From a candidate division FCPU426 bacterium (GTDB lineage: Bacteria; Oederibacteriota; Muellerivitia; Muellerivitales; Muellerivitaceae): DNA of 64,000 bases. Positions within the stretch are counted from its first letter, which is position 1. Every line of letters begins with the position of its first letter. A model generated the notes under the pieces. That model was not told the origin of the DNA. It saw only the letters and a program-made list of their open reading frames with translations, and did no database searches. The position numbers and the translations under genes are program-made. This document shows, in pieces, positions 17,933 to 38,444 of this stretch. The stretch spans positions 404,750 to 468,749 of the forward strand of contig DAIDGV010000024.1 in assembly GCA_027452205.1 (NCBI GenBank), written 5' to 3'.

Positions 17933-18499
17933 TTGACTGAACCTTCCATGACGCCCAAAGAGATCAAAGAAAAAGGTCTTTTGGTCATTTACACCGGTGA
18001 GGGGAAAGGCAAGACCACCGCTTCCTTAGGTATGGTCTATCGGGCTTTGGGTTGGGGCCATCCAGTGGCGGTCGTTCAATTCATCAAAGGTAAATGGAAG
18101 ACCGGGGACCGTAAATGGGCGGAGAAGATCGCCGCGACCTTTCCAAATTTATTGAATTTTTCAACCATGGGAGAGGGTTTTACTTGGGAAAGCACGGACC
18201 TTAATATCGATAAAGCCGCCGCCCAGGCCGCTTGGGAAAGGGCCAAGAACTTCATCCGATCCGGTCAACATTTCCTGATCGTTCTCGATGAGATCACCTA
18301 TGCCATGAACTACCAGTTCATCGATCAGGCGGATGTGGTCCAGACCTTGAAGGACCGGCCCAAGCAAGTTTCAGTGGTGTTGACCGGTCGCGACGCTCCT
18401 GTTGAGCTGGTCGAGATGGCGGACTTGGTCACTGAAATGAAAAAGATCAAACATCCTTTCGATCAAGGCATTCCCGCCAAACCAGGGGTGGATTTTTGA
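17933..18499 (+). CDS. cobO: Cob(I)alamin adenosyltransferase (CobA/CobO/BtuR type)
   Basis: 'GLLVIYTGEGKGKTTASLGMVYRALGWGHPVAVVQFIKG'; start TTG 17933 or ATG 17948. Confidence 0.9.
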   Translation: MTEPSMTPKEIKEKGLLVIYTGEGKGKTTASLGMVYRALGWGHPVAVVQFIKGKWKTGDRKWAEKIAATFPNLLNFSTMGEGFTWESTDLNIDKAAAQAAWERAKNFIRSGQHFLIVLDEITYAMNYQFIDQADVVQTLKDRPKQVSVVLTGRDAPVELVEMADLVTEMKKIKHPFDQGIPAKPGVDF

Positions 18500-19995
18500 T
18501 ACCCGCCAAAACCCTCATGGTCCAAGGTACGGCTTCCTCGGTGGGAAAAAGTCTATTGGTGGCCGCGCTCTGCCGTTATTTTTACCACAAGGGCCTACGG
18601 GTCGCGCCTTTTAAGTCCCAGAACATGTCGAACAATTCCTTTGTCACTTCCGAGGGATTGGAGATGGGCCGGGCCCAGGTGATGCAGGCCCAAGCCTGTG
18701 GTATCGAACCTCAGGTGGACATGAATCCCATTCTTTTGAAGTGCGAATCCGACCGGCGGTTGCAAGTGGTGGCCTTGGGCAAAGCCGAGGTTTCCATGGA
18801 GGGCCGCGATTACTATGACTATTCTCCCCGGCTTAAACCGGTCATCCGCGGCGCTTTGGACCGTTTACGGGCGAAATATGACCTGGTCATTTTGGAGGGA
18901 GCGGGTAGTCCCGCGGAGGTGAACCTTCAATCACGGGATTTGGCCAATATGTTCGCCGCCCAGGAAGCGGACGCGCCGGTGCTGCTGGTCGGCGATATCG
19001 ACCGGGGCGGGGTCTTCGCCTCGCTCATCGGCACGCTGGACCTTTTACCACCCGACCAAAGGGCACGGGTGAAAGGGTTGGTTATCAATAAATTCCGGGG
19101 CGATCTGGGGATCCTCAAACCTGGATTGTCTTTCATCGAACAGCGTTCCAACCTGCCGGTACTGGGCGTGTTGCCTTATCTCTTCGACTTGAACGTCGCC
19201 GAGGAAGACGCGGTCGTATTGGAAGACAAACGGACATTTTCTTCTCCTGCGCCTTTACGGGTGGCAGTCCTGAAATTTCCCCGCATCTCGAACTTCGACG
19301 AATTCCAACCGCTCAAGAAAGAAAAGAACTTCCAACTCGATTGGATCGATCGTCCTGGCCAGATCGGCGATGCGGATTTGGTCATCCTCCCCGGCACCAA
19401 ATCCACGGTGGCCGACTTGGCTTGGTTGAGGGAGCGAGGATTTGAAATGCCCTTACGACAAAGGGCCGAGGAAGGTCTTTCCCTCTTGGGTATCTGCGGT
19501 GGTTATCAAATGCTGGGCCAATCGATCGAAGACCCGGACGAAGTGGAATCCACCCAAAAACGGGTTACCGGACTGGGACTCTTACCGGTAGTGACCCGCT
19601 TCGAGAAAAACAAGATCACTTCACAGATCGGCGGCAGGACCCAAAACTCGGGCTTTTTCCCGGAGGCGCGGGGCTTCAAAAGCTATGAGATCCATTGCGG
19701 CCGGGTGGAACGATCCGCCCCGGCGCGCCCCTTGTTCGCCCTTCTGACGCGCAATGGCCAAACGGTCTCTGAAACCGAAGGCGCCGCATTGGGTTCGGTA
19801 GCGGGCACGCTACAGCACGGTCTCTTCGAGAACCAGGACCTTCGCCAAGCGCTGTTGGATGCCTTGGGTAAATCCAGGGGCCTTTTCCTTCAGGCGGAAG
19901 TTCAATCCGATGAGGCAGACTTTGACCGGTTGGCCGAGATGGTGCGGCGGCATTTGGACGTGAAGTTTCTGGACCGTTTGGTGGGAATGGAATGA
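18496..19995 (+). CDS. cobQ: Cobyric acid synthase
   Basis: 'LMVQGTASSVGKSLLVAALCRYF', 'PFKSQNMSNNSFVT', 'MNPILLKCESDRRLQVVALGK', GATase 'LLGICGGYQMLG'. Confidence 0.95.
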   Translation: MIPAKTLMVQGTASSVGKSLLVAALCRYFYHKGLRVAPFKSQNMSNNSFVTSEGLEMGRAQVMQAQACGIEPQVDMNPILLKCESDRRLQVVALGKAEVSMEGRDYYDYSPRLKPVIRGALDRLRAKYDLVILEGAGSPAEVNLQSRDLANMFAAQEADAPVLLVGDIDRGGVFASLIGTLDLLPPDQRARVKGLVINKFRGDLGILKPGLSFIEQRSNLPVLGVLPYLFDLNVAEEDAVVLEDKRTFSSPAPLRVAVLKFPRISNFDEFQPLKKEKNFQLDWIDRPGQIGDADLVILPGTKSTVADLAWLRERGFEMPLRQRAEEGLSLLGICGGYQMLGQSIEDPDEVESTQKRVTGLGLLPVVTRFEKNKITSQIGGRTQNSGFFPEARGFKSYEIHCGRVERSAPARPLFALLTRNGQTVSETEGAALGSVAGTLQHGLFENQDLRQALLDALGKSRGLFLQAEVQSDEADFDRLAEMVRRHLDVKFLDRLVGME

Positions 19996-21074
19996 GCGAG
20001 GTTCTTTTTGAGCATGGCGGTGATCTGGAAAAAGCCGCATCGTTAGCGGGTTGTTCCCCGAAAGATCTGACGGATTTCTCCAACCTGCTCAACCCTTGTG
20101 GTTCTCCGCCGGGGTTGGAAGACGCATTAAAGGGCCAAGTGGGCGTCGCTTTGCTTCACCCCTCCTCCGGGGAAGGTCTCAAAGCCCGTCTTGCCCGACA
20201 AATGAAAGTGATCCCTCAACAAGTTTTCCTGGGCGGCGGTACGACCGAGTTCATTCATTTTTTGCCGCTTTGGCGTAAGTCGCAAAGACCCGTTATTGTC
20301 GGCCCGACTTATGGGGATTATGCCCCCGCCTTACGGCGCATGGGTGTGGAACCAAAATGGCTACTGGCGACGGAAGAAAAGGATTGGGTGCTCTCTTCCC
20401 AGCAATGGGAAGAAGGCATGAAAGAAAAGCCGGACTTCCTCATTCTTTCCCGCCCGAATAATCCCCTGGGTCAAAGTCTTTATCATCCCCTTTTAAAGGA
20501 CCTGATCCAAAGCCACCCTCAAACCTTTTTTGTGGTGGATGAAACCTGTATCGAACTGGCCGATGACCCAATAGATAATTTTTTGCTGGATCCTTGGCCG
20601 CGTAACTTGGCGGTGCTTCGTTCTTTTTCCAAAACTTATGCGGTGCCAGGCTTGCGTTTGGGCATTCTGCTGCTGCACCCTGATCTGGCGGGGTCTTTCC
20701 GGACTTTTCAAATGCCATGGACGGTTTCGCCTTTGGCGCAAGCGGCGGGGCTTTATTTGACCCATCAAGAAACTTGGTTGACCGAGAGTCAAGCCAAGAA
20801 CCGTATGGAGAAAGAACGGGTCTTTATGGAATTGAACGCGCTTAAAAAGTTCAAAGTGTTCCCTTCGTGCATGACCGCTTTTACGGTGAAAGGGCTCGTC
20901 CCTGGTTTTTCAGCCACGGCTCTTTTGAAAAAACTTCTCATGAATGAAAAAATACTGATCCGCGATCTTTCCCAACATCCAGGCTTGGGTCCTGTTTTCT
21001 TCCGCGTTGGTTTAAGGACGCCATCGGAAAATGATCGGCTTGTCGCAGCGCTGAAAAAAGAGGAAGCCGGATGA
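19992..21074 (+). CDS. Class I/II aminotransferase, threonine-phosphate decarboxylase-like (CobC/CobD)
   Basis: 'LSRPNNPLG', 'VLRSFSKTYAVPGLRLGILL' PLP lysine region; operon position between cobQ and cbiB. Confidence 0.85.
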   Translation: MSEVLFEHGGDLEKAASLAGCSPKDLTDFSNLLNPCGSPPGLEDALKGQVGVALLHPSSGEGLKARLARQMKVIPQQVFLGGGTTEFIHFLPLWRKSQRPVIVGPTYGDYAPALRRMGVEPKWLLATEEKDWVLSSQQWEEGMKEKPDFLILSRPNNPLGQSLYHPLLKDLIQSHPQTFFVVDETCIELADDPIDNFLLDPWPRNLAVLRSFSKTYAVPGLRLGILLLHPDLAGSFRTFQMPWTVSPLAQAAGLYLTHQETWLTESQAKNRMEKERVFMELNALKKFKVFPSCMTAFTVKGLVPGFSATALLKKLLMNEKILIRDLSQHPGLGPVFFRVGLRTPSENDRLVAALKKEEAG

Positions 21075-22012
21075 AGATCCATGCATTGGCCCTGCTTTTA
21101 GCCCTGGGACTCGATCTTCTTTTGGGGGATATCGAACGATTACCCCATCCCGTGAGATGGATGGGCGCTTTTTACCGTTGGTTCGATGAACTCTTCCGGA
21201 AGGCCAATTGGCGCCGTTATGAAACGGGTCTTTTCGCGGTGGTCTTCACCGGCTCGGTCTTTGCCTTAGGTACGGGATTATTTCTTACCCTCATCCGGGA
21301 TGGGTTACCCCAGATCTTGGCGGAAGGATTCCTGTTCTACTGGTGTCTGTCGGTCCGTACCCTGGTGGATGAGGCGCGGGAGGTCTATTTGGCTCTTTTG
21401 CGAAGGGACCTGCCCAAAGCCCGCCGGCATCTTTCCCGGGTGGTCGGGCGGGATACCAAGGGATTGCCCGTGGCCGAGATCGTTCGGGCCGTGGTGGAAA
21501 CCATCGGGGAAAGTTTTGTGGACGGGTTCCTCACCCCGGTCTTTTGGGGTTTGATCTTCGGAGTACCCGGTGCTTTTTTCTTCAAAGCGGTTTCTACAGG
21601 CGATTCAATGATCGGCCACCCGGACGCGCCCTATGAAAAGTTCGGCTGGGGTGCCGCTCGGATGGACGACGCGATGAATTTCCTTCCCGCCCGGCTTTGC
21701 GTTCTCTTTTTAGCCCCTGCCGCTTTGATCTGCCGTTTGGATGTCTGGGGTTTGCTCAAGGTTTTTTGGCAAGACCGGCTTAAACACGCCAGTCCCAACG
21801 CTGCCCATGGCGAAGCGGCTTTCGCGGGGGCTTTAGGGGTCCGGTTGGGCGGGATAAACCGATATGGCGGCAAGACCTATCCACAGGCTTTCTTGAATTC
21901 ATCCGGTCGTCCTTGCCAGCTATCGGACATTCTCAAGGCAATCTCGTTGTTAAAAGCTACGACAGCCCTGATCAGCGCGGTCCTTTTATCCAGTGTCATT
22001 TTGTTGCGCTAG
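21071..22012 (+). CDS. cbiB: Adenosylcobinamide-phosphate synthase
   Basis: 'LLLGDIERLPHPVRWMG', 'GDSMIGHPDAPYEKFGWGAARMDDAMNFLPARL'. Confidence 0.93.
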   Translation: MKIHALALLLALGLDLLLGDIERLPHPVRWMGAFYRWFDELFRKANWRRYETGLFAVVFTGSVFALGTGLFLTLIRDGLPQILAEGFLFYWCLSVRTLVDEAREVYLALLRRDLPKARRHLSRVVGRDTKGLPVAEIVRAVVETIGESFVDGFLTPVFWGLIFGVPGAFFFKAVSTGDSMIGHPDAPYEKFGWGAARMDDAMNFLPARLCVLFLAPAALICRLDVWGLLKVFWQDRLKHASPNAAHGEAAFAGALGVRLGGINRYGGKTYPQAFLNSSGRPCQLSDILKAISLLKATTALISAVLLSSVILLR

Positions 22013-22094
22013 TGGCACAAGATTTGCCCAAAAACCACAAGCTTTAGTATTGACAGAGAATTAACCTCACATAATATAGAAATCAGCGAGCGGT

Positions 22095-22265
22095 ACGTTT
22101 GGGGGATCCAAACGTTGAAAAGGGAACCTGGTGAAAGACCAGGACTGCCCCGCAGCGGTAAACGGGAACGAAAGCCGAACGACGCACTGGGCCATCATGG
22201 ATGATCTGGGAAGCGCGGCTAGTAGGGAAAGAAAAGGCCCGTCAGTCCGAAGACCTGCCGAACGC
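22095..22265 (+). ncRNA. Cobalamin riboswitch upstream of nrdA
   Basis: AAAAGGGAACCTGGTGAAAGACCAGGACTGCCCCGCAGCGGTAAACGGGAACGAAAGCC...GTCAGTCCGAAGACCTGCC. Confidence 0.93.
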
Positions 22266-22464
22266 TCACAAACCTTTCTTCTTGGGGAAGAAGACAGGCC
22301 CTCACCTCTTCAACGCCGTTTCACTTCCCTAAAAATGTTTTTCGTTTTTCCATTTCCGTTCGTAACGAACGCGCGGAGAGGAATGAGCTGTCTCATTTTT
22401 CTCCAAAAATAGGTTTGCCTCCACGCGCCCTGATCGCGCGGAGAACCATCTTGAAGGAGCTTTT

Positions 22465-24885
22465 ATGTCCGAAACCGTTCCGGCCTCGTCCGCCAGCCGT
22501 CCGAATCTATCCGTGGTGGGAGGCGAAGAAGTCGCCGTCCGCACCATGATGCGCGTTAAAAAGCGTAATGGCGAATTCGAGCCGGTCGACCCCAACAAGA
22601 TCGTCCGCGCGATCGCCCGCTGCTGCGGCGGCTTGACCCACGTGGACCCGATGCGGGTCGCCACCCGTACCATCAGCGGTCTTTATGACGGCGCGACCAC
22701 GATGGAGTTGGACCAACTCTCCATCCAGACCGCCGCTCACCTGATCGCCGAAGAACCCGAATATTCCCGCTTGGCCGCCCGCTTGCTCGCGACCTATATC
22801 GAAAAAGAAGTGATGAACCAAGATATCCATAATTTCTCCCAGTCCATTGACGCGGGCTACAAGAGCGGCATTATCGACGGCGCCATCCGCAAGCGCATCA
22901 CGCCCAATGCCCGTAAGATCAACGCGGCCATCGAATCCTACAGCACGGACTTGTTCGAGTATTTTGGTCTTCGTACTTTATACGACCGTTATTTGTTGAA
23001 GCACCCCGAGACCCGCCAGGTCATCGAAACACCCCAGTATTTCTTCATGCGCGTGGCTTGCGGCTTGTTCGAAGAAGCCGAGGAAGCCATCGAGTTCTAC
23101 CGCTTGATGTCGTCGCTGGAATATATGCCCTCGACCCCGACCTTGTTCAACTCGGGCACCCGGAACCCGCAATTGTCCTCCTGCTTCCTTTTGGATTCCC
23201 CGCAGGATTCCCTGGAAGCCATCTACAAGAAATACAGCGACATCGCCCTGCTCTCGAAGTTCGCCGGCGGGATCGGGGTGGCTTACACCCGCATTCGTGG
23301 CCGGGGCTCGCTCATCCGCGGTACCAATGGCCTTTCACAGGGCATCGTGCCCTGGTTGAAGACGCTGGATTCCTCTGTGGCGGCAGTCAACCAAGGCGGT
23401 AAACGCAAAGGCGCTTGTTGTGTTTATTTGGAGACATGGCACGCGGATATCGAGGAGTTCCTGGAGCTTCGCGATAACACCGGCGACGAAGCGCGCCGCA
23501 CGCACAATTTGAACCTGGCCCATTGGGTGCCAGACCTTTTCATGAAGCGTTTGGAAGCGGACGCGGACTGGTCCCTCTTCGACCCGAAGGCCGTGCCCCA
23601 ATTGACGGATCTTTTCGGGGCCGAATTCGAAAAGGCTTACGCTGAGGCGGAAGAAAAAGGGTTGGCGGTCAAAAAGGTGAAAGCTCGCGACCTTTACGCC
23701 CAAATGATGAAGACCCTGGCCCAGACCGGCAACGGTTGGATGTGCTTCAAGGATTCGTCCAACGAAAAGTGCAACCAGACTGCCACCGCGGGCAAAGCGG
23801 TCCACTTGTCCAATCTTTGCACCGAGATCATCGAGGTGACCAACGCCAAGGAGACCGCGGTCTGTAACCTGGGTTCGCTGAACCTGTCGCGCCACGTGAC
23901 TGCCAGCGGTTTTGACTTTGACAAGCTGCGCGCCAACACCACCCTGGCCGTTCATCAATTGGACAAGGTCATCGATATCAATTTCTATCCCATCGACAGC
24001 GCAGCGGATTCCAACCGCAAGTGGCGCCCAGTGGGTCTGGGCATCATGGGCCTGCAGGACGTGTTCTTCCAAATGCGCCTGCCCTTTGACAGTCCCCAAG
24101 CCTTGGAATTGTCCACCCGCATCCAGGAAGAGATCTATCTCTCCGCCTTGGAAGCTTCATGCGATCTGGCCGAAAAGCTCGGCGCTCACCCCAACTTCGC
24201 GGAAACCCGCGCGGCGCAAGGCGTACTGCAGCCGGACCTGTGGAAAGTGACGGCGAAGAACACCGCCCGTTTGGATGCCTTGCGCGAAAAGATCAAGAAG
24301 CACGGGTTGCGTAATTCCCTGCTCTTGGCCATCGCCCCGACGGCGACCATCGCTTCCATCTGCGGCTGCTACGAATGTATCGAACCGCAGATCTCGAACC
24401 TCTTCAAGCGCGAGACCCTGTCCGGCGAGTTCCTGCAAGTGAACCGTTACCTGGTCAACGAGCTCAAGCAATTGGGTCTGTGGAACGAAGCGACCCGTAA
24501 CAAGATCAAGGCGGGCGAGGGTTCCATCCAAGACATCAAGGAATTGCCGGATACGGTCAAGCAAGTGTTCCGCACCGTGTGGGAACTGCCTCAAAAAGCG
24601 CTGATCGATCTGGCCGCCGAACGGGGAGCTTTCCTCGATCAAAGCCAGTCCTTGAACCTGTTCATGGAATCGCCGGCCATCGGCAAGCTCTCTTCCATGT
24701 ATATGTACGCCTGGAAAAAGGGACTCAAGACCACCTATTACCTGCGGTCGAGGCCCGCGACCCGTATCGCCCAGTCGAACAACACGGCTACGATGGCCGC
24801 CTCCGCGCCGGTTCCGAAGTTCTCGGACGCCGAAGCGGTGGCTTGTTCGCTGGAAAATCCGGAGTCCTGCGAAGCCTGCCAGTAA
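22465..24885 (+). CDS. nrdA: Class I ribonucleotide reductase alpha subunit
   Basis: N-terminal ATP-cone, 'STPTLFNSGTRNPQLSSCFLL', 'NLCTEII', C-terminal 'CSLENPESCEACQ'. Confidence 0.95.
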   Translation: MSETVPASSASRPNLSVVGGEEVAVRTMMRVKKRNGEFEPVDPNKIVRAIARCCGGLTHVDPMRVATRTISGLYDGATTMELDQLSIQTAAHLIAEEPEYSRLAARLLATYIEKEVMNQDIHNFSQSIDAGYKSGIIDGAIRKRITPNARKINAAIESYSTDLFEYFGLRTLYDRYLLKHPETRQVIETPQYFFMRVACGLFEEAEEAIEFYRLMSSLEYMPSTPTLFNSGTRNPQLSSCFLLDSPQDSLEAIYKKYSDIALLSKFAGGIGVAYTRIRGRGSLIRGTNGLSQGIVPWLKTLDSSVAAVNQGGKRKGACCVYLETWHADIEEFLELRDNTGDEARRTHNLNLAHWVPDLFMKRLEADADWSLFDPKAVPQLTDLFGAEFEKAYAEAEEKGLAVKKVKARDLYAQMMKTLAQTGNGWMCFKDSSNEKCNQTATAGKAVHLSNLCTEIIEVTNAKETAVCNLGSLNLSRHVTASGFDFDKLRANTTLAVHQLDKVIDINFYPIDSAADSNRKWRPVGLGIMGLQDVFFQMRLPFDSPQALELSTRIQEEIYLSALEASCDLAEKLGAHPNFAETRAAQGVLQPDLWKVTAKNTARLDALREKIKKHGLRNSLLLAIAPTATIASICGCYECIEPQISNLFKRETLSGEFLQVNRYLVNELKQLGLWNEATRNKIKAGEGSIQDIKELPDTVKQVFRTVWELPQKALIDLAAERGAFLDQSQSLNLFMESPAIGKLSSMYMYAWKKGLKTTYYLRSRPATRIAQSNNTATMAASAPVPKFSDAEAVACSLENPESCEACQ

Positions 24886-24906
24886 TTAACCGAAACGGTT
24901 GTTGTA

Positions 24907-24951
24907 ACGGAGTTACATTGAGGAAAAAGACGAACTCCTCGATGTAACTCC
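24907..24951 (+). other. Long intercistronic hairpin between nrdA and nrdB
   Basis: CGGAGTTACATTGAGGA / TCCTCGATGTAACTCCG: 17-bp stem with one G-U type mismatch and an 11-nt loop. Confidence 0.8.
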
Positions 24952-25000
24952 GAGTTGTTTTGTGGTGAAATATTTTCTCTCTTAATTTGAAGGAGCCCCC

Positions 25001-25999
25001 ATGATCCTCGATTCCGGATTCAAGCTGACCCTGCGCCCCATGCAGTACCCGACTTTTTATGAAATGTATCGCGCGGCCATCAAGAACACCTGGACCGTCG
25101 AGGAAGTGGACTTCTCCACCGACCTGGTCGATCTTCGCGATAAAGTTTCAGCCCCTGAAAAACATCTCATCCAGCGTTTGGTGGCTTTCTTCGCCACCGG
25201 GGATTCCATCGTGTCGAACAACCTAGTGCTGAACCTTTATCGACATATCAATTCACCAGAAGCGCGTATGTATCTATCGCGTCAGCTTTATGAAGAAGCC
25301 CTGCACGTTCAGTTCTATCTGACCCTTTTGGACAACTACATGCCGGATCCGGCCGAACGGGAGAAAGCGTTCTCAGCAGTGGATAACATTCCCTCGATCA
25401 AGCGCAAGGCCCAGTTCTGTTTCAAGTGGATCAATTCGGTCTATGCTCTTAACGAAATCAAGACCGAGGCGGACCGGGAACAGTTCCTTATGAACCTCAT
25501 CAGTTTCGCATGCGCGGTGGAGGGTCTCTTTTTCTTTGCGGCTTTTGCTTATGTTTACTTCCTTCGCTCGAAAGGTTTGCTGAATGGCTTGGCGGCGGGC
25601 ACGAACTGGGTGTTCCGGGACGAGAGCATGCACATGACCTTTGCTTTCCAAGTGGTAGAGACGGTACGCAAGGAATATCCCCAGCTCTTCAACTCCAACT
25701 TGGAAAAGAAGATCCACGAAATGTTGGCGGATGCTATCGATTGCGAGGAACAGTTTGCCTCGGATTTGCTGCAGGAAGGAGTGGCCGGCTTGTCCCTCGG
25801 CTCCATGCGCCAGTATTTAGAATTCGTGGCCGACCAACGTTTGGTCAATCTAGGTTTTCCACCTAAGTATAAGACCAAAAATCCCTTCGACTTCATGGAC
25901 CTGCAGGACGTTCAGGAATTGACCAACTTCTTCGAACGCCGGGTCTCGGCCTATCAAGTGGGCGTCACCGGCGACGTAGCCTTCAACGAAAGCTTCTGA
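25001..25999 (+). CDS. nrdB: Class I ribonucleotide reductase beta subunit
   Basis: 'YEEALHVQFYLTLLDNY' (E-x2-H-x3-Y), 'FATGDSIVSNNL', 'EGLFFFAAFAYVYFL', 'RDESMH' metal ligands. Confidence 0.95.
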   Translation: MILDSGFKLTLRPMQYPTFYEMYRAAIKNTWTVEEVDFSTDLVDLRDKVSAPEKHLIQRLVAFFATGDSIVSNNLVLNLYRHINSPEARMYLSRQLYEEALHVQFYLTLLDNYMPDPAEREKAFSAVDNIPSIKRKAQFCFKWINSVYALNEIKTEADREQFLMNLISFACAVEGLFFFAAFAYVYFLRSKGLLNGLAAGTNWVFRDESMHMTFAFQVVETVRKEYPQLFNSNLEKKIHEMLADAIDCEEQFASDLLQEGVAGLSLGSMRQYLEFVADQRLVNLGFPPKYKTKNPFDFMDLQDVQELTNFFERRVSAYQVGVTGDVAFNESF

Positions 26000-26003
26000 T
26001 CCC

Positions 26004-26267
26004 ATGCGTTGGGTCATTTGGGGCACCGTGAAGAAATGGTTCGATCACGCGGCGAATAAGTACACCGGTGCGGACCAGCTTCGGCAAGAGAACGAGAAAC
26101 TGCGCCAAGAGAACCAAACCCTTAAGGCGAACAATGAACAATTATTGGGAAGGGTGCAGTACCTGGAAAAGGGCCACAAGGGTATCCATATTTCCGTCGT
26201 GCTTTTGACGGCCCTTTTGGCTATTTCGGCCACTTTAAATGTCGTTTATTGGTTCTTTAAGCACTAA
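26004..26267 (+). CDS. Small coiled-coil single-TM protein
   Basis: Heptad-like 'QLRQENEKLRQENQTLKANNEQLLGRVQYLEKG' followed by a TM helix. Confidence 0.6.
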   Translation: MRWVIWGTVKKWFDHAANKYTGADQLRQENEKLRQENQTLKANNEQLLGRVQYLEKGHKGIHISVVLLTALLAISATLNVVYWFFKH

Positions 26268-27187
26268 AGCGAAACGACGGCGAAGGCCTCCGGACGGCCT
26301 TTCCAATCAAAGACCTCCGGATGGATCAGATGGGCCAAGAGCTCCACTCCATCCACTAATCGTAAAGCGGGCCGGGCAAAGTAAGAATTACCATCCACCG
26401 CATAGACCCTTTTGTTCTTTACCGCCTGAAGGTCGTTCCAATGGGGCCTGGTTTTCAATAACTCAGCCTGTTCCAACGATCTTTGGGTGTTATAGCCGCA
26501 AGGCGAAACGATCAATACTTCGGGGTCTAACTTCAAAACATCGTCCCACGGGATGCGGACTGAATCCACGTTTGGTTTTGAGATATTGTCCACCCCGCCG
26601 GCCCAGCCGATCATCTCGGGTATCCAATGGCCGCCGCAATAAATAGGATCGACCCATTCCATGAAGAAGACTTTTTTGGGTTTTAGTTCTTTGCTCTTGG
26701 TTTTGACAGCATCGATCCGGGCTTGGGCCTGGGCGGCCAGTTGACGGGCTTTATCCAGAGTGCCGGTCTTTTCACCCAAAGCGATCAGGTCAGCAAGGAC
26801 ATTGTCGAAAGAGTGCGGGGTTTGCCAAAGGAATTCAGGTTTGGGCACCAGGGTCCTCAAGGCTTGGGTCGCTTCATTGCCCGAAGGGGCGCAGACCTGA
26901 CAAAGGTCCTGGGTGATGATGAGGGTCGGTTTTACTTTTTTGATCGCTTCCTCATCCACGGCGTAAACACTTTGGCCCTGGCCCATACGGGCGCTGACCG
27001 CTTCATCGATCTGTTGAAGGCTCAAACTAGCCAGGTCCATGGCGCAACGGACGACCACCGGTTTGGTCTTTACTTGGGCGGGATAGTCGCATTCATGGGA
27101 GACGCCCACCAGGTGATCGAAAAGGCCCAGGTCACAGACCATTTCGGTGGCGGCGGGAAGGAAACAAGCGATCCGAAGGTCGCTCAA
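26264..27187 (-). CDS. Cobalamin-binding BtuF-like protein without a signal peptide
   Basis: 'RIACFLPAATEMVCDLGLFDHLVGVSHECDYP', helical-backbone metal-receptor fold features; N-terminus is not a signal sequence. Confidence 0.8.
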   Translation of the reverse strand: MSDLRIACFLPAATEMVCDLGLFDHLVGVSHECDYPAQVKTKPVVVRCAMDLASLSLQQIDEAVSARMGQGQSVYAVDEEAIKKVKPTLIITQDLCQVCAPSGNEATQALRTLVPKPEFLWQTPHSFDNVLADLIALGEKTGTLDKARQLAAQAQARIDAVKTKSKELKPKKVFFMEWVDPIYCGGHWIPEMIGWAGGVDNISKPNVDSVRIPWDDVLKLDPEVLIVSPCGYNTQRSLEQAELLKTRPHWNDLQAVKNKRVYAVDGNSYFARPALRLVDGVELLAHLIHPEVFDWKGRPEAFAVVSL

Positions 27188-27387
27188 GGCTTCTTTTCCT
27201 CAAGGGTCTGGATCAGGGTGGCTTCCATCAGGCAGTCCGAGCACATACAGTCTTTTTCCATGTTTACGTTCTGAAGCACGGGATAAAGGGTGCACCAGCA
27301 GCTGCCGTGGGCTTCCAAGGTGCCGCATTGAAAGCCTTTGCCGCAGCGGCTGCAGATTTTAGTGGTGGGCTTGCTTGGGAATGTCAT
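27184..27387 (-). CDS. Cysteine-rich CWC-type small protein
   Basis: 'KICSRCGKGFQCGTLEAHGSCWCTLYP...CMCSDCL'; start re-set to ATG at 27387. Confidence 0.75.
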   Translation of the reverse strand: MTFPSKPTTKICSRCGKGFQCGTLEAHGSCWCTLYPVLQNVNMEKDCMCSDCLMEATLIQTLEEKKP

Positions 27388-27436
27388 GAAGGGATTGTAC
27401 ACTACGGGCACTGGATTCCAACAGGTGGGGGCCCGC

Positions 27437-28303
27437 ATGAAGTTCCGGCGTTTGATTTGGGTCGTTCTTTTGTTTATCTTAGGCTTAACGCGGGTTTTTT
27501 CTCAAACGATCCCCCACCGGGTCATTTCTCTTTCGCCAAATTTTACCGAGATCGTTTATGACATCGGCGCCCAAGATCAATTGGTGGGTGTGACCAATTA
27601 TTGCAAGTTCCCGCCCGAAGCCACGAAAAAAGAAAAAGTCGGCGGGTGGGTAAATCCAAATATTGAAAAAATCGTTTCATTAAAACCCGATCTGATATTG
27701 GTGCCTTCTTTTTTTGGGAAGAATTATGACCGGCTTCAAAAACTAGATCTCCCCATCCTGGCCATGAAATGCTACACAACACAGGACGTCTTAGCTCTTT
27801 ATGATTTGATCGGTGAAAAAATGGGCCGGGAAAGCGCGGCAAAAAAAGCAAAGGATCGGCTTGAAAAGCGGCTTGGTCGATTGAAAGGCCATAAAAGCGA
27901 TCGAAAACCTTTATCGGTCCTATTCATTGTGAATCATGTGCCCGGGGCTTTGCAGCAACTTTATGCGGTCGGATCGAATAATTTCATAAACGAGCTCATC
28001 CAATGGACCGGCGGGGTCAACGTATTGGAAGATTCCAAGTTGACCTACCCTATCGTTTCCAAGGAAGAGATGGTTAGCCGAGACCCGGATGTCATTATTA
28101 CGGTCTTGCCTCCCGAATCGAAAAAAGAGGATGAGAAAAACGAACAAAAGATTTGGTCCCAAATGTCCACCCTGAAAGCGGTGCGGGAAGGGCATCTTTA
28201 TTTTTTTCAAGGGGACGATCTGATGATCCCGGGTCCAACGATGCTGCATTTGGCCCAACTTCTTTCGGACGCATTTGAAAAAACCGGGATGACCCAACCG
28301 TGA
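27437..28303 (+). CDS. btuF: Periplasmic cobalamin/corrinoid-binding ABC component (BtuF-like)
   Basis: Signal peptide 'MKFRRLIWVVLLFILGLTRVFSQ', 'HRVISLSPNFTEIVYDIGAQDQLVGVTNYCKFP'; start re-set to ATG at 27437. Confidence 0.82.
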   Translation: MKFRRLIWVVLLFILGLTRVFSQTIPHRVISLSPNFTEIVYDIGAQDQLVGVTNYCKFPPEATKKEKVGGWVNPNIEKIVSLKPDLILVPSFFGKNYDRLQKLDLPILAMKCYTTQDVLALYDLIGEKMGRESAAKKAKDRLEKRLGRLKGHKSDRKPLSVLFIVNHVPGALQQLYAVGSNNFINELIQWTGGVNVLEDSKLTYPIVSKEEMVSRDPDVIITVLPPESKKEDEKNEQKIWSQMSTLKAVREGHLYFFQGDDLMIPGPTMLHLAQLLSDAFEKTGMTQP

Positions 28304-29679
28304 CAGCTCCTCCCTCTTTTCTTGTCACGGGCACCAGCAGTGGCGTTGGCAAAACAACCTTATCTTTTACGCTCATGGCCCTATTTCAAAAAAAAGGTTA
28401 TCAGGTCCAACCTTTCAAGATCGGCCCGGACTATATCGATGGCGGCTATCACCGATTGGCGACGGGTAAAGATTCCATCAATCTTGATCTTTGGATGATG
28501 GGCTGGTCAGGAATTCGGGAAAGTTTCAATCGTTATGGTTCCGATGCCGATATTTCGATCATCGAGGGTATGGGCGCACTTTATGATGGAAAGAATGGCA
28601 CGACCAGTGGCAGTAGTGCGGAGATCGCCAAAAAACTGGGGATTCCTGTTGTTTTGGTTATCGACATTTGGGGAGCCACGGTGACCACCGCCGCTTTGTT
28701 AGAGGGTTTGCTACGATTCGATCCTCGGGTGAAAGTAGCCGGGATCATTTTGAACCGGGCGGGAAGCCAAAAACACTACGAGATGGTGATGAAAGCCCTC
28801 AAGCCGGCTCTTCGAAAAATGGTGATCGGTTATTTATTAAGGGATCGGGGGCGGGAAATTCCTGAACGGCATTTGGGTTTACGCACCCTGGAAGAAAATC
28901 CAAAGGCGCGCCAGGTTTTACGGGACACGGTCTCGGCAGCTTCCAAAACTTTGGATATCACTCGTCTCGCCAAGATCTTAAAACTCAAAAAACGAAAGCG
29001 CTCTCCTGTTTCGGTTGTTTTACCGCCCGCCGGAGTGAAGTTGGGTGTGGCCCGAGATAGCGCCTTTTGTTTTTATTACGCTGAGAATTTGAGAATGCTT
29101 CAGGAAGCAGGGGCTCGGTTGGTTTTCTTTAGTCCCCTGAAAGACAAGAAACTTCCTAAGGATCTGGATGGGCTTTATTTCGGCGGTGGTTATCCTGAAA
29201 GCTTTTCTCGAGAGCTTTCCGCGAACAAGGGTTTGCGGCGGGAGATCCTTCAAAAAGTAAAAACAGGGATGCCGGTCTACGCCGAATGCGGCGGTCTCAT
29301 GTATCTTTCTGAAAGTTTGAAGGGGTTTGAAGGACGGGCCTTTCCATTGGTTGGGGCTCTGCCTTTAAAGGTTGAAATGGACCGAAAACGGCTTCATTTA
29401 CGCTATGTGGAGATCAAAACGACAGTTCCTTCTTTGTTGGGGCCCAAGGGCACCGTTGCCCGGGGACATGAATTCCATTATTCGAGTATTGTTCGTAGCG
29501 GATATCGCGGCTCCATGGTCTACCAAGGCGTCAATAGCGCCGGGGAAAAATTTAGTGAAGGTTACGCTCAAGGAAATCTTCTGGCGAGTTACTGTCACTT
29601 GCACTTCCGCTCTCATCCACTGATCCCCGCCTATTTTGTTCAAGCTTGCTGGGATTATGATGTTCGTCACACTTCTTAA
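28300..29679 (+). CDS. cbiA: Cobyrinate a,c-diamide synthase
   Basis: 'LVTGTSSGVGKTTLSFTLMALF', 'FKIGPDYIDGGYH', 'GLYFGGGYPESF', 'VYAECGGLMYL'. Confidence 0.93.
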   Translation: MTAPPSFLVTGTSSGVGKTTLSFTLMALFQKKGYQVQPFKIGPDYIDGGYHRLATGKDSINLDLWMMGWSGIRESFNRYGSDADISIIEGMGALYDGKNGTTSGSSAEIAKKLGIPVVLVIDIWGATVTTAALLEGLLRFDPRVKVAGIILNRAGSQKHYEMVMKALKPALRKMVIGYLLRDRGREIPERHLGLRTLEENPKARQVLRDTVSAASKTLDITRLAKILKLKKRKRSPVSVVLPPAGVKLGVARDSAFCFYYAENLRMLQEAGARLVFFSPLKDKKLPKDLDGLYFGGGYPESFSRELSANKGLRREILQKVKTGMPVYAECGGLMYLSESLKGFEGRAFPLVGALPLKVEMDRKRLHLRYVEIKTTVPSLLGPKGTVARGHEFHYSSIVRSGYRGSMVYQGVNSAGEKFSEGYAQGNLLASYCHLHFRSHPLIPAYFVQACWDYDVRHTS

Positions 29680-29736
29680 AACATCCCCAACTTTCATTTG
29701 ACAACTTTCGGTAACAAGAGTATTTACTTCCCCACA

Positions 29737-29875
29737 ACTCAAGGTGTTTGGGAAGCCGGTGAGAATCCGGCACGGACCCGCCACTGTGAGGGGCGTTGAA
29801 TTTTTCCGCAAGCCACTGTCCAAAAGATGGGAAGGCCCGGAAATTTGCCCCGAGTCAGGAGACCGGCCTTGAGGT
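29737..29875 (+). ncRNA. Cobalamin riboswitch upstream of btuB
   Basis: AAGGTGTTTGGGAAGCCGGTGAGAATCCGGCACGGACCCGCCACTGTGAGGGG...GCCACTGTCC...GAGTCAGGAGACCGGCCTT. Confidence 0.96.
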
Positions 29876-29980
29876 GAATTTTCGACGGCTTCTTCGGGAA
29901 TAAGAAGACGGAGTAAAACCTTCCTTTCGGTTTTTCTTCCATTTGACTCCCATGAAGTCCTCGGCCTCGGGAGTAGGCAA

Positions 29981-32116
29981 ATGAAAAAGTTTTTGAGTCG
30001 GATTGTTCTAGGTGTCGGTCTTTTTTCTTTTTTGAGTTCATACCTTCCAGCGGCGTCTCTGACGCCTTTATCCACTATGCCACCTGCTGTGAGCACAGCG
30101 GTCCCCACCGTTTTGGCGACTTCGATTCCGACATTGATCGCCACGACAGTTCCAACGGTCTCGGGCCAGATGATTGTTCCGACGATCGTGGCAACGCCTG
30201 TCGTGACCGTTTCCGCATCCCCGAAGGTCTCCGCGTCCCTTGAGCCGGCGAGCCTTTCGGAAGTGGTCGTGACCGCTAACCGGGTAAAGGCCGATCCAAA
30301 CGCAGTCACCAGTTCAGAAACGATCTTGGATAACCAGGAATTGGAAAAGAAACAGTCCGGCACAGTCAAGGATGCTTTGGTCCAAGTGCCGGGTGTCAAT
30401 GTGACCCAAAATGGTAATCCTGGCGAGACGTCAGGCGTTTATCTTCGGGGAGCTAATCCTGAATTGACCTTGGTTTTGATGGACGGCATTCCCTTGAATG
30501 ATCCCGTGGGAAGTCCTTTTGATTATGAATATCTCGATGGTCTTTCCCTGGATGACGTGGAACAGATCGAAGTGGTTCGAGGACCGGAAAGCACTCTTTG
30601 GGGTTCCAATGCCATCGGTGGCGTCATCAACATCATTCCTAAAAGCGGGCCCGCACCCTTGGGTGGATCGGTATTGGTCGAAGGGGGATCCTATAACACG
30701 ACCCATGAAGCCGTTTCGGCTCAAGGCGGCGATAATGGCGGTTATTTCAATTTCAACGCTTCCCATTTCGGTACCGCGGGATTCCCCGCCCTGGATGTGA
30801 GGGGGTTGGACGCTACTGACAAAGCTAATTTAAATTCGAGTACGGACACGAACCCCGGGACCATCAACAATGGGGACGATAACAATACAGTGTCCCTTCG
30901 GTTGGGTTCGAACTTAACCTCGAATTTGGAGGAAAAGGTTTTTGCCCGTTATAGCCAATCGAATACGAGTTTTGATGATCAACCGGTCAATGTCCTAGTG
31001 GACGATCCAACGGCTTTCGCCTTACAAAAACAATTCATGGTGGATAGCCATACTGATTGGAAATTGTTGAACGGCTTCTGGGATCAGACATTGACCTTCG
31101 CTTTCTATGACGACAATCGAGCCTACAACGTGACCGCCAATCCTTATGATTCCAACGCTTGGCAGGCTACCTATGACAGCCAAGTTGGCCAAGTTGTCTG
31201 GCAGAACAACCTGCATTTTGCCAAGGAGGAAACTTTGGTTTTGGGTGTGCAAGGCCAGGACGAATGGGCGGTATCAACCTATGGCGGGGCTTCCAGTTTG
31301 CCCGTGACCAATGTGACCACGGTCTCAGGTTTTGCGGAAAGTGAAACCAATATTGAGGACCGGTTATTTTTCAATTTGGGAGGTCGTTGGGAAGATCAAA
31401 GTCAATATGGGGTCCATACGACTTATCAAGCCGGATTGGCTTATATCTTGCCTGGCATCGACACCAAGTTGAAGGCCAACTATGGAACGGGTTTTTTGGC
31501 GCCAACACTTTATCAATTATTCAATCCGTCCTCTTTTGCCTTAGGAAATCCAAATCTTCAACCTGAAACGAGCTCAGGATTCGACTTGGGATTTGAGCAG
31601 CCGATCGCGGGGAAGGACTTCCTGACCTTGGGCGCGAATTATTTCGACAACGATCTGACCAATTTGATCCAGTACCAGAACAGCACTTATACCAACATCG
31701 GTCAGGCGCGCACCTATGGTGTGGAAAGCTTTCTGGAGTTCAGGGGTATTAAGAACTTGGATCTCAAGGGTGGTTACACTTACACCTATGCCTGGAACGT
31801 TTCCAATGATACCGAATTGCTGCGTCGTCCACAGAACAAGGTTAATGGTGACGCGGATTATCAGTTGGACAAGTTGGGATTTGGAGCTTCAGTGATCTAT
31901 ACCAGTTCGGCCCTGGATAACGACTTCGAATACCCGGCGAATATCGTGACTTTACCGAGCTACTGGTTGGTCAATCTACGCGCTTCCTATCAAGTGAATC
32001 CGCAAGTAAAGGTTTTCGCCCGGGTGGATAACTTGTTTAACCAATGGTACGAAACGGCTTATGGTTACAGCACTCCAGGGTTGTCGGCTTATGGGGGCAC
32101 TAAGATCTCGTTCTGA
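29981..32116 (+). CDS. btuB: TonB-dependent cobalamin outer-membrane receptor
   Basis: 'SEVVVTANR', plug 'GVYLRGANPELTLVLMDGIPLNDP', 'IEVVRGPESTLWGSNAIGGVINIIPK', C-terminal aromatic F; riboswitch upstream. Confidence 0.92.
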   Translation: MKKFLSRIVLGVGLFSFLSSYLPAASLTPLSTMPPAVSTAVPTVLATSIPTLIATTVPTVSGQMIVPTIVATPVVTVSASPKVSASLEPASLSEVVVTANRVKADPNAVTSSETILDNQELEKKQSGTVKDALVQVPGVNVTQNGNPGETSGVYLRGANPELTLVLMDGIPLNDPVGSPFDYEYLDGLSLDDVEQIEVVRGPESTLWGSNAIGGVINIIPKSGPAPLGGSVLVEGGSYNTTHEAVSAQGGDNGGYFNFNASHFGTAGFPALDVRGLDATDKANLNSSTDTNPGTINNGDDNNTVSLRLGSNLTSNLEEKVFARYSQSNTSFDDQPVNVLVDDPTAFALQKQFMVDSHTDWKLLNGFWDQTLTFAFYDDNRAYNVTANPYDSNAWQATYDSQVGQVVWQNNLHFAKEETLVLGVQGQDEWAVSTYGGASSLPVTNVTTVSGFAESETNIEDRLFFNLGGRWEDQSQYGVHTTYQAGLAYILPGIDTKLKANYGTGFLAPTLYQLFNPSSFALGNPNLQPETSSGFDLGFEQPIAGKDFLTLGANYFDNDLTNLIQYQNSTYTNIGQARTYGVESFLEFRGIKNLDLKGGYTYTYAWNVSNDTELLRRPQNKVNGDADYQLDKLGFGASVIYTSSALDNDFEYPANIVTLPSYWLVNLRASYQVNPQVKVFARVDNLFNQWYETAYGYSTPGLSAYGGTKISF

Positions 32117-32143
32117 AAAGGTTTCAAAGCGGGGGGATGACAA

Positions 32144-32178
32144 AGGCCGGGGCAGGAAACCGCTCCGGCTTTTTTATT
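32144..32178 (+). terminator. Rho-independent terminator after btuB
   Basis: GGCCGGGGCAGGAAACCGCTCCGGC-TTTTTTA. Confidence 0.75.
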
Positions 32179-32539
32179 TAAGCCGCTGGTCCAGTATGGT
32201 CATTAGTTTGGGTTCGGGGCCAATAGGTTTCCTCAATAAGGTCTTGAAACCCCAGTTCTCTTTTTCAAAAGTCCGCAATATCTCCGGAATATGTTCCCGA
32301 ACGTGACTGGCTTGGAACAGGAAAAGTGGAAGGACTTCCACAAGACTCGTATTTTTCGCCAGTTTCTTGAGCGCTTGGGGAATGGAAGGTTCGGCTAGTT
32401 CCAAAAAGGCGTAGGCGATAACCCAGTTGGGATGCTTCTTTTGATAAAGCTGGACTAGTTTCTTGAAGTCCGCGTTAGCCCGCGTATCCCGGCTTCCATG
32501 GCTGATGACGAGCACATGTTTTTTCACAAGACGATCCAA
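32174..32539 (-). CDS. cbiX: Short sirohydrochlorin cobaltochelatase (CbiX-type)
   Basis: 'VLVISHGSRDTRANADF', 'AYAFLELAEPSIPQAL', 'VEVLPLFLFQASHVREHIPEIL'; 121 aa short form. Confidence 0.85.
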   Translation of the reverse strand: MDRLVKKHVLVISHGSRDTRANADFKKLVQLYQKKHPNWVIAYAFLELAEPSIPQALKKLAKNTSLVEVLPLFLFQASHVREHIPEILRTFEKENWGFKTLLRKPIGPEPKLMTILDQRLK

Positions 32540-33261
32540 TGGGTGTTCATGCAGGCGAAGAAGAGAAGAACGGTTTCGGTCAGTTCCACAGTGGCGCCCA
32601 GACCATCCCCGGTCAAACCGCCGATATATTCCTGTGAGATGCGGCTAACGAAGATAGGAATGATCCCCGCGATGAGGCCAACATAAAGGATGTTCTTCCC
32701 CAGGGCAAAACAACCTGCCGCGGCCAGGACGGTCGCCGCTAGGAAAATGGGAAGAGGAATGCCCATGACCATAGAGCCCAAGCCTTGATTGCCCGCTGGC
32801 GGTTTAGAGATGAAACAAGCCACGCAGACCGCCCAGCGGGCCGCCACGGGGATGGCCAGGAGCCAATAAGTAATGGAAGCCTGGTCGAGTAAGTGCCGGA
32901 TCAGGATCGCTTTGAAGATAAGGGTGAGGGTGATACCCACGAGTCCGTAGGTGCCCAGATCCGGGGCTTTCATGATGCGGTGGCGGTCTTCCGGGTCCTT
33001 GCCACCAAAGAAGCCGTCCAGACAATCCCCCAGGCCATCCAAATGAAAAGCGCCGCTCAAAAGGACCCAAACCAAAAGAAGGACGAGGGCTTTCAGGTCC
33101 GTCGCGAGAGAAAGATGATCGATCAGAATAAAAGCCCCGCCAAACAAAGCGCCGACCAGGGGGTAAAAGAGGACCGAAAGTTTCAGTTCTTCCGATGTCG
33201 GGTTCAGCTTTTTAGCCGGAATTAACGTGAGCATGGCAAAGGCGGCGAAAAGAGCGTTCAT
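32524..33261 (-). CDS. cobS: Adenosylcobinamide-GDP ribazoletransferase
   Basis: 'FYPLVGALFGG', 'GAFHLDGLGDCLDGFFGGKDPEDRHRIMKAPDLGTYGLVGI'. Confidence 0.94.
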   Translation of the reverse strand: MNALFAAFAMLTLIPAKKLNPTSEELKLSVLFYPLVGALFGGAFILIDHLSLATDLKALVLLLVWVLLSGAFHLDGLGDCLDGFFGGKDPEDRHRIMKAPDLGTYGLVGITLTLIFKAILIRHLLDQASITYWLLAIPVAARWAVCVACFISKPPAGNQGLGSMVMGIPLPIFLAATVLAAAGCFALGKNILYVGLIAGIIPIFVSRISQEYIGGLTGDGLGATVELTETVLLFFACMNTHWIVL

Positions 33262-34340
33262 TTCTTTGCTTTTGCCTTGGTCTTTTCTTTTTCGATCTTG
33301 GTAGGGACCTTGGCGCTTTCAAAAGTAGCCATCTCCGCGTGAGTGCGGATGGCGGATTCCAAGATGTTCAAAGCCAAAGCCGCGCCGGAGCCTTCTCCCA
33401 GGCGCATTTTTAAATTCAAAAGCGGTTTGGTCTCCAACATCTCGAAGAACTTGGCATGGCCGGGTTCCTCGGATAAATGAGAGAAGAAGGCGAAGTCCTT
33501 CACGGCTGGGTTCAAGCGATAGGCCACCAAGAAAGCGGAAGAAGTGATGAAGCCATCCACCACCACCGGGATGCGGTTCTTGGCGCAGCCCAAGACCACT
33601 CCGGTCAAGGCGGCGATCTCCAGGCCTCCCAAACGACGAAGGGCTTCCCAGGGATTGATGAGATAGGGCTCGTGTAATTTCAGACTTTCCTGGATGACCC
33701 GGCATTTATTGAGCCATTGTTCCCGGTTGATGCCGGTGCCGAAGCCGGTGACGTCTTCCGCCGCGCAGGGCAAGAGCGCCGCCATCAAGGCCGCGGCGCT
33801 GGTGGTATTGCCGATGCCCATCTCGCCTAAGGCGACCCACTTGATCTTGTCCTTCTTGGCTTGATCCGCCAGCTCAAGGCCGATCTGGAAAGCCCTTTCG
33901 CATTCTTTTTCGCTCATGGCGTCTTCGACTTTGAAATTTTTCGTGCCTTTGGCGACCTTGGCGGAGACCAGTTGTTTGTGCTTCGGAAGGTCCGCCGCGA
34001 CGCCCACATCCACGACCTGTACTTCAGCGCCGGCTTGGCGGGCCAGGGCGCTGATGGCCGCGCCTCCGCTGAGGAAGTTGAGAACCATCATGGGCGTGAC
34101 CGCGGAGGGGAAAGCGGAAACCCCTTCAACCGTGACGCCATGATCCCCGGCGCAAAGGATGACGCGTTTTTTGCCGAGCTGGGGTATTGGTTCCCCGGTG
34201 ATACCGGCGACTTGAATGGCGATGTCCTCCAACCGGCCCAGGCTTTTGGCCGGTTTGGTCAATTGCGCCTGGCGGGTTTGGGCTTTTTCGATGGCTTTCG
34301 GGTTCAAGGGTTTAACGGTCGGAATGCGAATAGTTTTCAT
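33258..34340 (-). CDS. cobT: Nicotinate-nucleotide--dimethylbenzimidazole phosphoribosyltransferase
   Basis: 'KPAKSLGRLEDIAIQVAGI', 'CAGDHGVTVEGVSAFPSAVTPMMVLNFLSGGAAIS', 'GEMGIGNTTSAAAL'. Confidence 0.95.
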   Translation of the reverse strand: MKTIRIPTVKPLNPKAIEKAQTRQAQLTKPAKSLGRLEDIAIQVAGITGEPIPQLGKKRVILCAGDHGVTVEGVSAFPSAVTPMMVLNFLSGGAAISALARQAGAEVQVVDVGVAADLPKHKQLVSAKVAKGTKNFKVEDAMSEKECERAFQIGLELADQAKKDKIKWVALGEMGIGNTTSAAALMAALLPCAAEDVTGFGTGINREQWLNKCRVIQESLKLHEPYLINPWEALRRLGGLEIAALTGVVLGCAKNRIPVVVDGFITSSAFLVAYRLNPAVKDFAFFSHLSEEPGHAKFFEMLETKPLLNLKMRLGEGSGAALALNILESAIRTHAEMATFESAKVPTKIEKEKTKAKAKK

Positions 34341-34421
34341 GAAGACCTCGGAAGTGAAATGAGAATCGCAAAATTATTTCACTCCCCCGGGGGCAAGTCA
34401 TTAACAAAATCCCCGGGAAGG

Positions 34422-35039
34422 TCAGCTTTTGCCGGCTTTTGACAAGATATTGCGGTAGCGTGCCGAATAGATCTCTTGGGAAGAGGGTTTGAGCACCGAG
34501 AGCCAAAATCCATCCCGGTTCTTGGGTTGCAACAAGCCGGTCAAAAGCCGGATGCGATGACGGTTGGAATAATCCAACTTCTTTTGCACCCAATCCTTGC
34601 TCTTGCCCGAGCGTAGGGCCCAAAGCAAGTAATGGGAAGAAAGGGTCTTGAAGTCGAATCGGGTTTTCCAAAGGGCGATGAGGGCCTTGTTCTCTTCGGT
34701 GGTAAATTTGGGTTTGCCGCCGAACTGATGATAGAAATCCAAAAAGTTCGATTCGAAGGTGCCCTTTGTTTTTTCAGTTTTTTCCGCCCAGGCATGGCGC
34801 AGGCGGACGGATCTTTTCGAATAGCCAAGGTCGAGGAAATGACCTTGGATGGTGTTGCGGTGCGTCCGCAAGATCCGGGCGGTTTGCAGGATGTTACCGT
34901 CGCAAACTACGAACCAATGAAGGAAGTAATGGCGCTCCAGGTCTTTGGGCAGAAGGCCTTTGTTCCACAATTTACCGAGGGTCTGCAGCCCTTTGGAAAG
35001 ATCGGTCTTGGAAAAAGAAGCAGGTGATTTGAAGGGCAT
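34422..35039 (-). CDS. Putative DNA-binding protein with two divergent Fis-like HTH modules
   Basis: 'LERHYFLHWFVVCDGNILQTARILRTHRNTIQGHFLDLGY' resembles a Fis HTH; second module 'TLSSHYLLWALRSGKSKDWVQKKLDYSNRHRIR' has similar spacing. Confidence 0.5.
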   Translation of the reverse strand: MPFKSPASFSKTDLSKGLQTLGKLWNKGLLPKDLERHYFLHWFVVCDGNILQTARILRTHRNTIQGHFLDLGYSKRSVRLRHAWAEKTEKTKGTFESNFLDFYHQFGGKPKFTTEENKALIALWKTRFDFKTLSSHYLLWALRSGKSKDWVQKKLDYSNRHRIRLLTGLLQPKNRDGFWLSVLKPSSQEIYSARYRNILSKAGKS

Positions 35040-35116
35040 GAGGGCTCTCTCAACAGGTTAACGGATAGTTAAGTGCAGTTTGGGGCTACCGGACTCCATT
35101 TTTCAAGCCGGGGTCC

Positions 35117-35656
35117 TCACTTTATCCTTTGAGGTATCCCCGCGATGAGAAAGAAGACCTGCGCGGCCTGCGCGGCCAATTTTTGGTTGAGAAGTCCTTG
35201 AAGATCACGGAATTGCCGGCCTAGAACGTTATCAGGCACGATGGACAATCCCACTTCATTGGAAACGATCCGCACTGTTCCGGGCGTCTTGGAAAGGACC
35301 ATGATTAGATCGTCGATCTTTCGCCCCGCCTCAGCTTCCGACAAGGAGGCGCCGCCCATTCCGCAGAGTAAGTTGGAGATCCAAAGCGTGGCGCAATCCA
35401 CCACGATCAAGGTTTTCCCGGTGGGCCGCAATTTTTCCAACGCATCCGTCAGGTGATAGGGAGCCTCGTGGGTTTCCCATTCCGCGCCCCGGTCCGAGCG
35501 GTGTTTCTCGATCCGGGCCTTCATTTCCTCATCGCCCGCGGTGGCGGTGGCCAAAAAAACGCGGCGCTCGAAAAGCGCCTCGTCGCCTTGGACCAAAGAG
35601 AAACGGGATTTGCCCGATCGGGCGCCCCCCAGGATAAGTTGAAGGTTGTTATTCAC
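35117..35656 (-). CDS. cobU: Adenosylcobinamide kinase / guanylyltransferase
   Basis: 'LILGGARSGKSRFS', 'RIEKHRSDRGAEWETHEAP', 'VDCATLWISNLL', 'VRIVSNEVGLSIVP'. Confidence 0.95.
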   Translation of the reverse strand: MNNNLQLILGGARSGKSRFSLVQGDEALFERRVFLATATAGDEEMKARIEKHRSDRGAEWETHEAPYHLTDALEKLRPTGKTLIVVDCATLWISNLLCGMGGASLSEAEAGRKIDDLIMVLSKTPGTVRIVSNEVGLSIVPDNVLGRQFRDLQGLLNQKLAAQAAQVFFLIAGIPQRIK

Positions 35657-38443: not shown

Positions 38444-38444
38444 T

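Follow-up and report, generated by a model that had tools for sequence, protein, structure and literature searches.

In Streptomyces coelicolor, the class I ribonucleotide reductase (RNR) operon nrdABS is placed under a vitamin B12 (cobalamin) riboswitch and coexists with the class II enzyme NrdJ, an experimental precedent for this arrangement (Borovok et al. 2006, as described in PMC4991794). Control by B12 elements was also proposed for nrdDG in the delta-proteobacteria Desulfovibrio and Desulfuromonas (PMC545781). Class I RNRs do not use B12 (PMC8123684). Here we describe a related locus beside dnaA in a stretch of 64,000 nucleotides from a candidate division FCPU426 bacterium, hereafter the window (G000:C24:404750-468749), part of a 700-kb contig in an assembly of 2.89 Mb, 28 contigs and 99.4% completeness. 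It is very probable that the locus represents a corrinoid-salvage and B12-regulon island, gained between rpmH and dnaA by an ancestor of the family and handed down at that site, that a riboswitch governs the choice of RNR, and that nested inversions reshuffled the region in this genome.

The DnaN relatives at 86–88% identity are metagenome-assembled genomes labelled candidate division FCPU426. The window genome (G000) was compared with seven relatives of its family, G001–G007 (completeness 97–99% for G001, G004 and G006, 94% for G005 and 65% for G003), and with G008, which belongs to another family of the same order.

Ribonucleotide reductases and B12 genes of the island

Approximately 18 kb of B12 genes plus nrdAB separate dnaN, which ends at 17862, from rpmH at 35933. 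A preliminary description of this DNA had reported the block, and its gene list and coordinates proved exact (cobO begins with a TTG codon at 17933, and the minus-strand cobU has its 5′ end at 35656); the gene families were confirmed by profile matches (Table 1). Its placement of bluB and btuCD beyond dnaA on the other side was also borne out, with cydAB intervening. Absent from it were three cobalamin riboswitches, a helix-turn-helix (HTH)-like gene at 34422–35039 and a second RNR, NrdJ, encoded elsewhere in the genome.

NrdAB is a class I RNR, with NrdA over the TIGR02506 cut-off and NrdB matched by PF00268. The class II NrdJ (L005) matches PRK06556, a model of B12-dependent RNRs, with 1455 bits, as well as TIGR02504 (591 bits) and PF08471, and its gene is located at position 3 kb of the same contig, approximately 425 kb from nrdA. 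The genome contains only three cobalamin riboswitches, all of them full-length and within the window, ahead of btuDC-bluB, nrdAB and btuB. The nrdAB riboswitch ends 189 nt before nrdA on the same strand. In G002, a member of another genus, nrdA is preceded by the same riboswitch at a similar spacing (~189 nt), and the NrdA proteins are 76% identical. A promoter-like TTGACA-16-TAATAT ranks among the two best sites of the region, where the number of such sites is near chance. The preliminary description had seen here deoxyribonucleotide (dNTP) synthesis co-located with the pathway for its vitamin cofactor, which is not supported: nrdAB is B12-independent and stands under a B12 riboswitch, and the B12-using NrdJ is encoded far away.

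These matches point to a putative B12-dependent choice between NrdJ (B12 present) and nrdAB (B12 absent), which corresponds to the known switch. Adenosylcobalamin made by the island would serve NrdJ, and it would bind the riboswitch ahead of nrdAB and shut off the B12-independent class I reductase. When B12 is scarce, nrdAB would be expressed and the dNTP supply maintained.

The nucleotide-loop genes cobU, cobS, cobT and cbiB are all present, as are cbiA and cobQ. CbiC and CbiD are absent in all nine genomes of the family and order but were found in seven and six control genomes, respectively (other corrin-ring genes were not searched). Because these two are missing, the island looks like a salvage system rather than one for de novo synthesis, and it is best read as a putative system for corrinoid uptake and completion. 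BtuB, BtuF and BtuCD would import corrinoids, which CbiA, CobO and CobQ would amidate and adenosylate; CobC/D, CbiB, CobU, CobS, CobT and BluB would then add the aminopropanol arm and the nucleotide loop to give adenosylcobalamin. The uptake genes btuDC-bluB and btuB would each be governed by their own riboswitch. The cobC/D-like pyridoxal phosphate enzyme is matched best by the CobD model (E=5e-69, under the curated cut-off), which is its likely assignment.

The product of the HTH-like gene has 205 amino acids, is mostly helical and contains the motif GNIIQTAKALxIHRNTIQGHF. It is 58–62% identical in all eight family genomes, where its gene lies beside cobU/cobT or rnpA wherever the contig reaches, and more distant paralogues occur elsewhere in three of them. 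Outside the family, no match was obtained among 59 genomes, and a fold search of the PDB with its structure model (predicted local distance difference test score, pLDDT, 76) gave no significant match. It is a candidate regulator of the island.

Position of the island in the family and in the window

The island occupies the rpmH/dnaA junction on single contigs in G001, G002 and G004, and the broken contigs of G003, G005, G006 and G007 are consistent with this position. Of the seven relatives in the family, six have B12 genes abutting dnaA, and the short contigs of G007 fit this pattern over the part that they cover. In the three single-contig relatives, gyrA-gyrB-recF-rsmG-mnmG-mnmE-jag-yidC-rnpA (minus) is followed by cobU/HTH/cobT/cobS/cbiX (plus), btuB-(cbiA)-btuF (minus), btuF2 (plus) and btuC-btuD (minus), and then by dnaA-dnaN, a DEAH helicase gene and an HD-GAF gene (plus). 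G002 additionally holds nrdBA, cbiB-cobC/D, cobQ-cobO and bluB between btuF2 and btuC, and cydAB between btuD and dnaA. G001 has cobQ-cobO between btuF2 and btuC with bluB beside btuB instead, cobU and the HTH gene are swapped in G004, and the btu genes are on the dnaA contig in G003, G005 and G006. No cobQ above the cut-off was found in G003–G006 (G003 being 65% complete). At the same site, cobO-cobQ-cbiB are missing between btuF2 and bluB/btuC in G006 (L048 2349-4550) and G005 (L047 1218-3131), losses that suggest a repeated erosion of the island.

Beyond the family, cobT-cobS-cobC/D-cbiB abut dnaA and cobU abuts rnpA in G008, with btuB and cobQ-cobO elsewhere on the contig. The gap between rnpA and dnaA in G009 is approximately 0.5 kb and holds no B12 genes, and yidC and dnaA are approximately 1.4 kb apart in G023. 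Among 76 more distant named dnaN loci (at most 10 kb per side, often less), the only B12-gene match was bluB in L136, with generic ABC (ATP-binding cassette) ATPase matches left out of the count. The synteny across relatives therefore suggests that the B12 genes reached the rpmH/dnaA junction in the ancestry of the FCPU426 family, perhaps of the order.

The cumulative GC skew, computed on the 700-kb contig only, declines up to ~357 kb, stays level until 421 kb and rises thereafter. A one-hinge fit places the turning point at ~399 kb, with fits within 5% of the best one spanning 387–411 kb; the curve also has a local minimum at 421,205, and dnaA is at about 419.7–421.1 kb of the contig. GC skew alone resolves an origin to some tens of kilobases, and local rearrangement blurs the position. 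The gap upstream of dnaA contains an exact DnaA box at 14818 and one-mismatch boxes at 14640, 14649 and 14886. A replication origin is thus likely near dnaA, and the hinge, local minimum and boxes together make the block origin-proximal. Two of the checks that the preliminary description had named, GC skew and synteny in relatives, came out in favor of an origin-proximal block: the skew turns near dnaA, and the relatives carry their B12 genes there and not at random positions.

Compared with the relatives, the outer markers of the window are in place, with an MprF-like gene (minus) at the left and the HD-GAF gene (plus) at the right. The stretch reaching from u51309/gyrA across the island has exchanged sides with the DEAH helicase gene, and the 9-kb bluB-btuCD-cydAB-dnaA-dnaN core keeps its orientation. 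The simplest account of this order appears to be two nested inversions. An inversion from beyond gyrA to the DEAH helicase gene would put the island behind dnaN, cutting the cobO operon from the btuD riboswitch. In G002, cobO starts within a few nucleotides of the end of bluB, downstream of the btuD riboswitch, whereas the cobO operon of the window has none. One breakpoint falls in the ~20 nt between the dnaN terminator and cobO, and the other between a tetratricopeptide-repeat (TPR) gene and bluB. Hairpins resembling the dnaN terminator are also found 3′ of dnaN in G001, G004 and G005. Of the position between dnaN and rpmH given in the preliminary description, the block and its adjacency to the origin are real, but the placement itself is a local rearrangement of the family-wide order rpmH, B12 island, dnaA.

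The proposed nested inversions around dnaA span 2317–54386 of the window. Near one breakpoint, the genes at 7393–7737 and 8053–8751 (TPR) have no match in the examined stretches of relatives. At 2001–4000, the GC content dips to 0.36 inside a large minus-strand gene with NHL-like repeats beside the DEAH helicase gene.

Table 1. Features in and around the island, from left to right, in window positions.
Feature	Position	Strand	Evidence
bluB, 5,6-dimethylbenzimidazole (DMB) synthase	8787..9452	-	TIGR02476 E=1e-79, above cut-off
btuC + btuD, B12 ABC transporter	9827..11616	-	NCBIfam BtuC/corrinoid ATPase matches, below equivalog cut-offs
Cobalamin riboswitch upstream of btuD-btuC-bluB	11691..11844	-	RF00174 101.3 bits
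cydA-cydB-like terminal oxidase genes, between btuD and dnaA	11984..14343	+	NCBIfam cydB above cut-off
Candidate oriC, AT-rich gap upstream of dnaA	14344..14971	+	DnaA boxes
dnaA	14972..16360	+	TIGR00362 569 bits
dnaN	16744..17862	+	TIGR00663 373 bits
dnaN intrinsic terminator, 10-bp stem and T tract	17889..17912	+	
cobO-cobQ-cobC/D-cbiB operon, 4-nt overlaps, no riboswitch upstream	17933..22012	+	
Sigma-70-like promoter TTGACA-16-TAATAT at 5′ end of nrdAB riboswitch	22050..22077	+	
Cobalamin riboswitch of nrdAB, full-length	22074..22276	+	RF00174 107.5 bits, model 1-189
nrdA, class I RNR alpha with ATP cone	22465..24885	+	TIGR02506 739 bits, over cut-off; PF03477
nrdB, class I RNR beta	25001..25999	+	PF00268 274 bits
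btuF-like binding protein 2 (btuF2)	26264..27187	-	PF01497 (Peripla_BP_2) E=8e-25
btuF-like binding protein	27338..28303	+	PF01497 E=6e-29; PRK03379 E=1e-31
cbiA, cobyrinate a,c-diamide synthase	28300..29679	+	PRK01077 481 bits, over cut-off
Cobalamin riboswitch of btuB	29725..29885	+	RF00174 101.3 bits
btuB-like TonB receptor	29981..32116	+	TIGR01779 310 bits, below cut-off
CbiX-domain chelatase	32174..32539	-	PF01903 E=3e-24
cobS	32524..33261	-	PRK00235 E=1e-39
cobT	33258..34340	-	TIGR03160 452 bits
205-amino-acid HTH-like protein	34422..35039	-	Conserved in all eight family genomes
cobU	35117..35656	-	PRK05800 174 bits
rpmH	35933..36070	+	Read by eye from sequence, not scored
rnpA	36092..36448	+	Translation; 75-85% identity in relatives
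yidC-jag-mnmE-mnmG-rsmG-recF-gyrB-gyrA	36725..51349	+	

Explanations of the location

The location is probably explained by an inherited neighborhood and the clustering of B12-controlled genes, with origin proximity probably having no special function; nothing here supports dosage coupling. Selection could instead have kept the B12 and RNR genes at the origin, with replication-linked gene dosage or shared dnaA-dnaN expression matching dNTP and cofactor supply to replication. The origin proximity is real, the B12 part has stayed beside dnaA throughout the family and to some extent in the order, and cobO directly follows dnaN in this genome. However, nrdAB is present in only three of the eight family genomes (G000, G002 and G007), which argues against a tight dNTP-replication module; G001, G004, G005 and G006 are without it, yet keep B12 genes at dnaA. 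In addition, the B12-using RNR is distant, cobO-cobQ-cbiB have disappeared from the site in several relatives, dnaN and cobO have a strong terminator between them, and origin clusters are generally conserved, so that inserts are inherited by default. The site gains and loses genes irrespective of replication, and we regard selected coupling as very improbable. Because the cobO operon lacks a riboswitch and begins ~20 nt past the dnaN terminator, read-through from dnaA-dnaN might drive cobO-cobQ-cobC/D-cbiB, replacing vitamin control by replication-linked expression, but this appears unlikely.

The inherited island would be compatible with a horizontal arrival of its riboswitch-nrdAB part, as a module shared with Actinomycetota and dropped into a resident B12 cluster. 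The closest records in a plasmid collection, to which the search was confined, are Actinomycetota NrdA sequences from a Georgenia sp. TF02-10 plasmid (66% identical; riboswitch at L210 2117-2510) and Nonomuraea gerenzanensis (62%; L212 2241-2501), both with a cobalamin riboswitch upstream of nrdA, and nrdAB is patchy in the family. A Bdellovibrio plasmid copy, also 62% identical, has no riboswitch, and the occurrence of the pair at one position in two genera would also be expected if it was ancestral and later lost in some lineages. We consider the transfer a reasonable possibility, somewhat short of an even chance. The junction between dnaN and cobO could also be an assembly artefact, the true order being rpmH, island, dnaA, as in the relatives with sufficient contig, where the B12 genes are left of dnaA and dnaN is beside the DEAH helicase gene; the new order is known from one assembly only. 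The long contig and the completeness of the assembly make an artefact less favored, and long near-perfect inverted repeats were not found at the two breakpoints. Moreover, the relocated origin-cluster genes are still directed away from the origin, keeping the leading-strand orientation that real inversions about it would give. An artefact is therefore quite improbable.

Several observations weigh against an inherited salvage island with riboswitch control and inversions. A scan gave no canonical intrinsic terminator between the nrdA riboswitch and nrdA, so that the expression platform is putative, and the whole leader folds no better than shuffled sequences (z −0.7). A strong local stem covers the nrdA ribosome-binding site in G002, whereas no such clear masking of the site is evident in the window. 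Because the substrates of CbiA and CobQ are earlier corrin intermediates, a pure cobinamide-salvage label misfits some genes. The inversion is seen in a single draft assembly, the only genome of its genus in the comparison.

Comparison with described systems

A literature search for B12 genes at rpmH/dnaA returned nothing relevant. With the present locus, a candidate phylum joins the examples in which a B12 riboswitch is expected to decide between two RNRs, and a B12 island is seen to be kept at the chromosome origin throughout a family. The rearranged genome amounts to a natural experiment, in which one portion of a former operon still has its riboswitch and the other has lost it.

The canonical rpmH-rnpA-yidC and dnaA-dnaN clusters form one neighborhood here as elsewhere, divergent in the relatives and closely spaced in G009, but ~18 kb of B12 and RNR genes is inserted, and the two clusters are co-oriented in the window after the inversion. 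Similar to cobinamide salvagers (PMC6461909), the island combines nucleotide-loop and uptake genes without the tested corrin-ring genes; in contrast, it keeps cbiA, cobQ, cobO and a CbiX-domain gene, and earlier corrin intermediates may be used. Desulfovibrio and Desulfuromonas share a B12-independent RNR that is predicted to be B12-repressed in genomes with NrdJ, but theirs is NrdDG, whereas that of the window is the class I NrdAB. The likeness to S. coelicolor nrdABS extends to a class I nrdAB, a cobalamin riboswitch directly upstream and a separate B12-dependent NrdJ in the same genome. The window differs in phylum, in lacking the AraC-like nrdS downstream, and in carrying the operon inside a B12-salvage island at the origin. 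The parts and their logic are already known; what is new is the location at the origin throughout the family and the inversion that separates cobO from a riboswitch.

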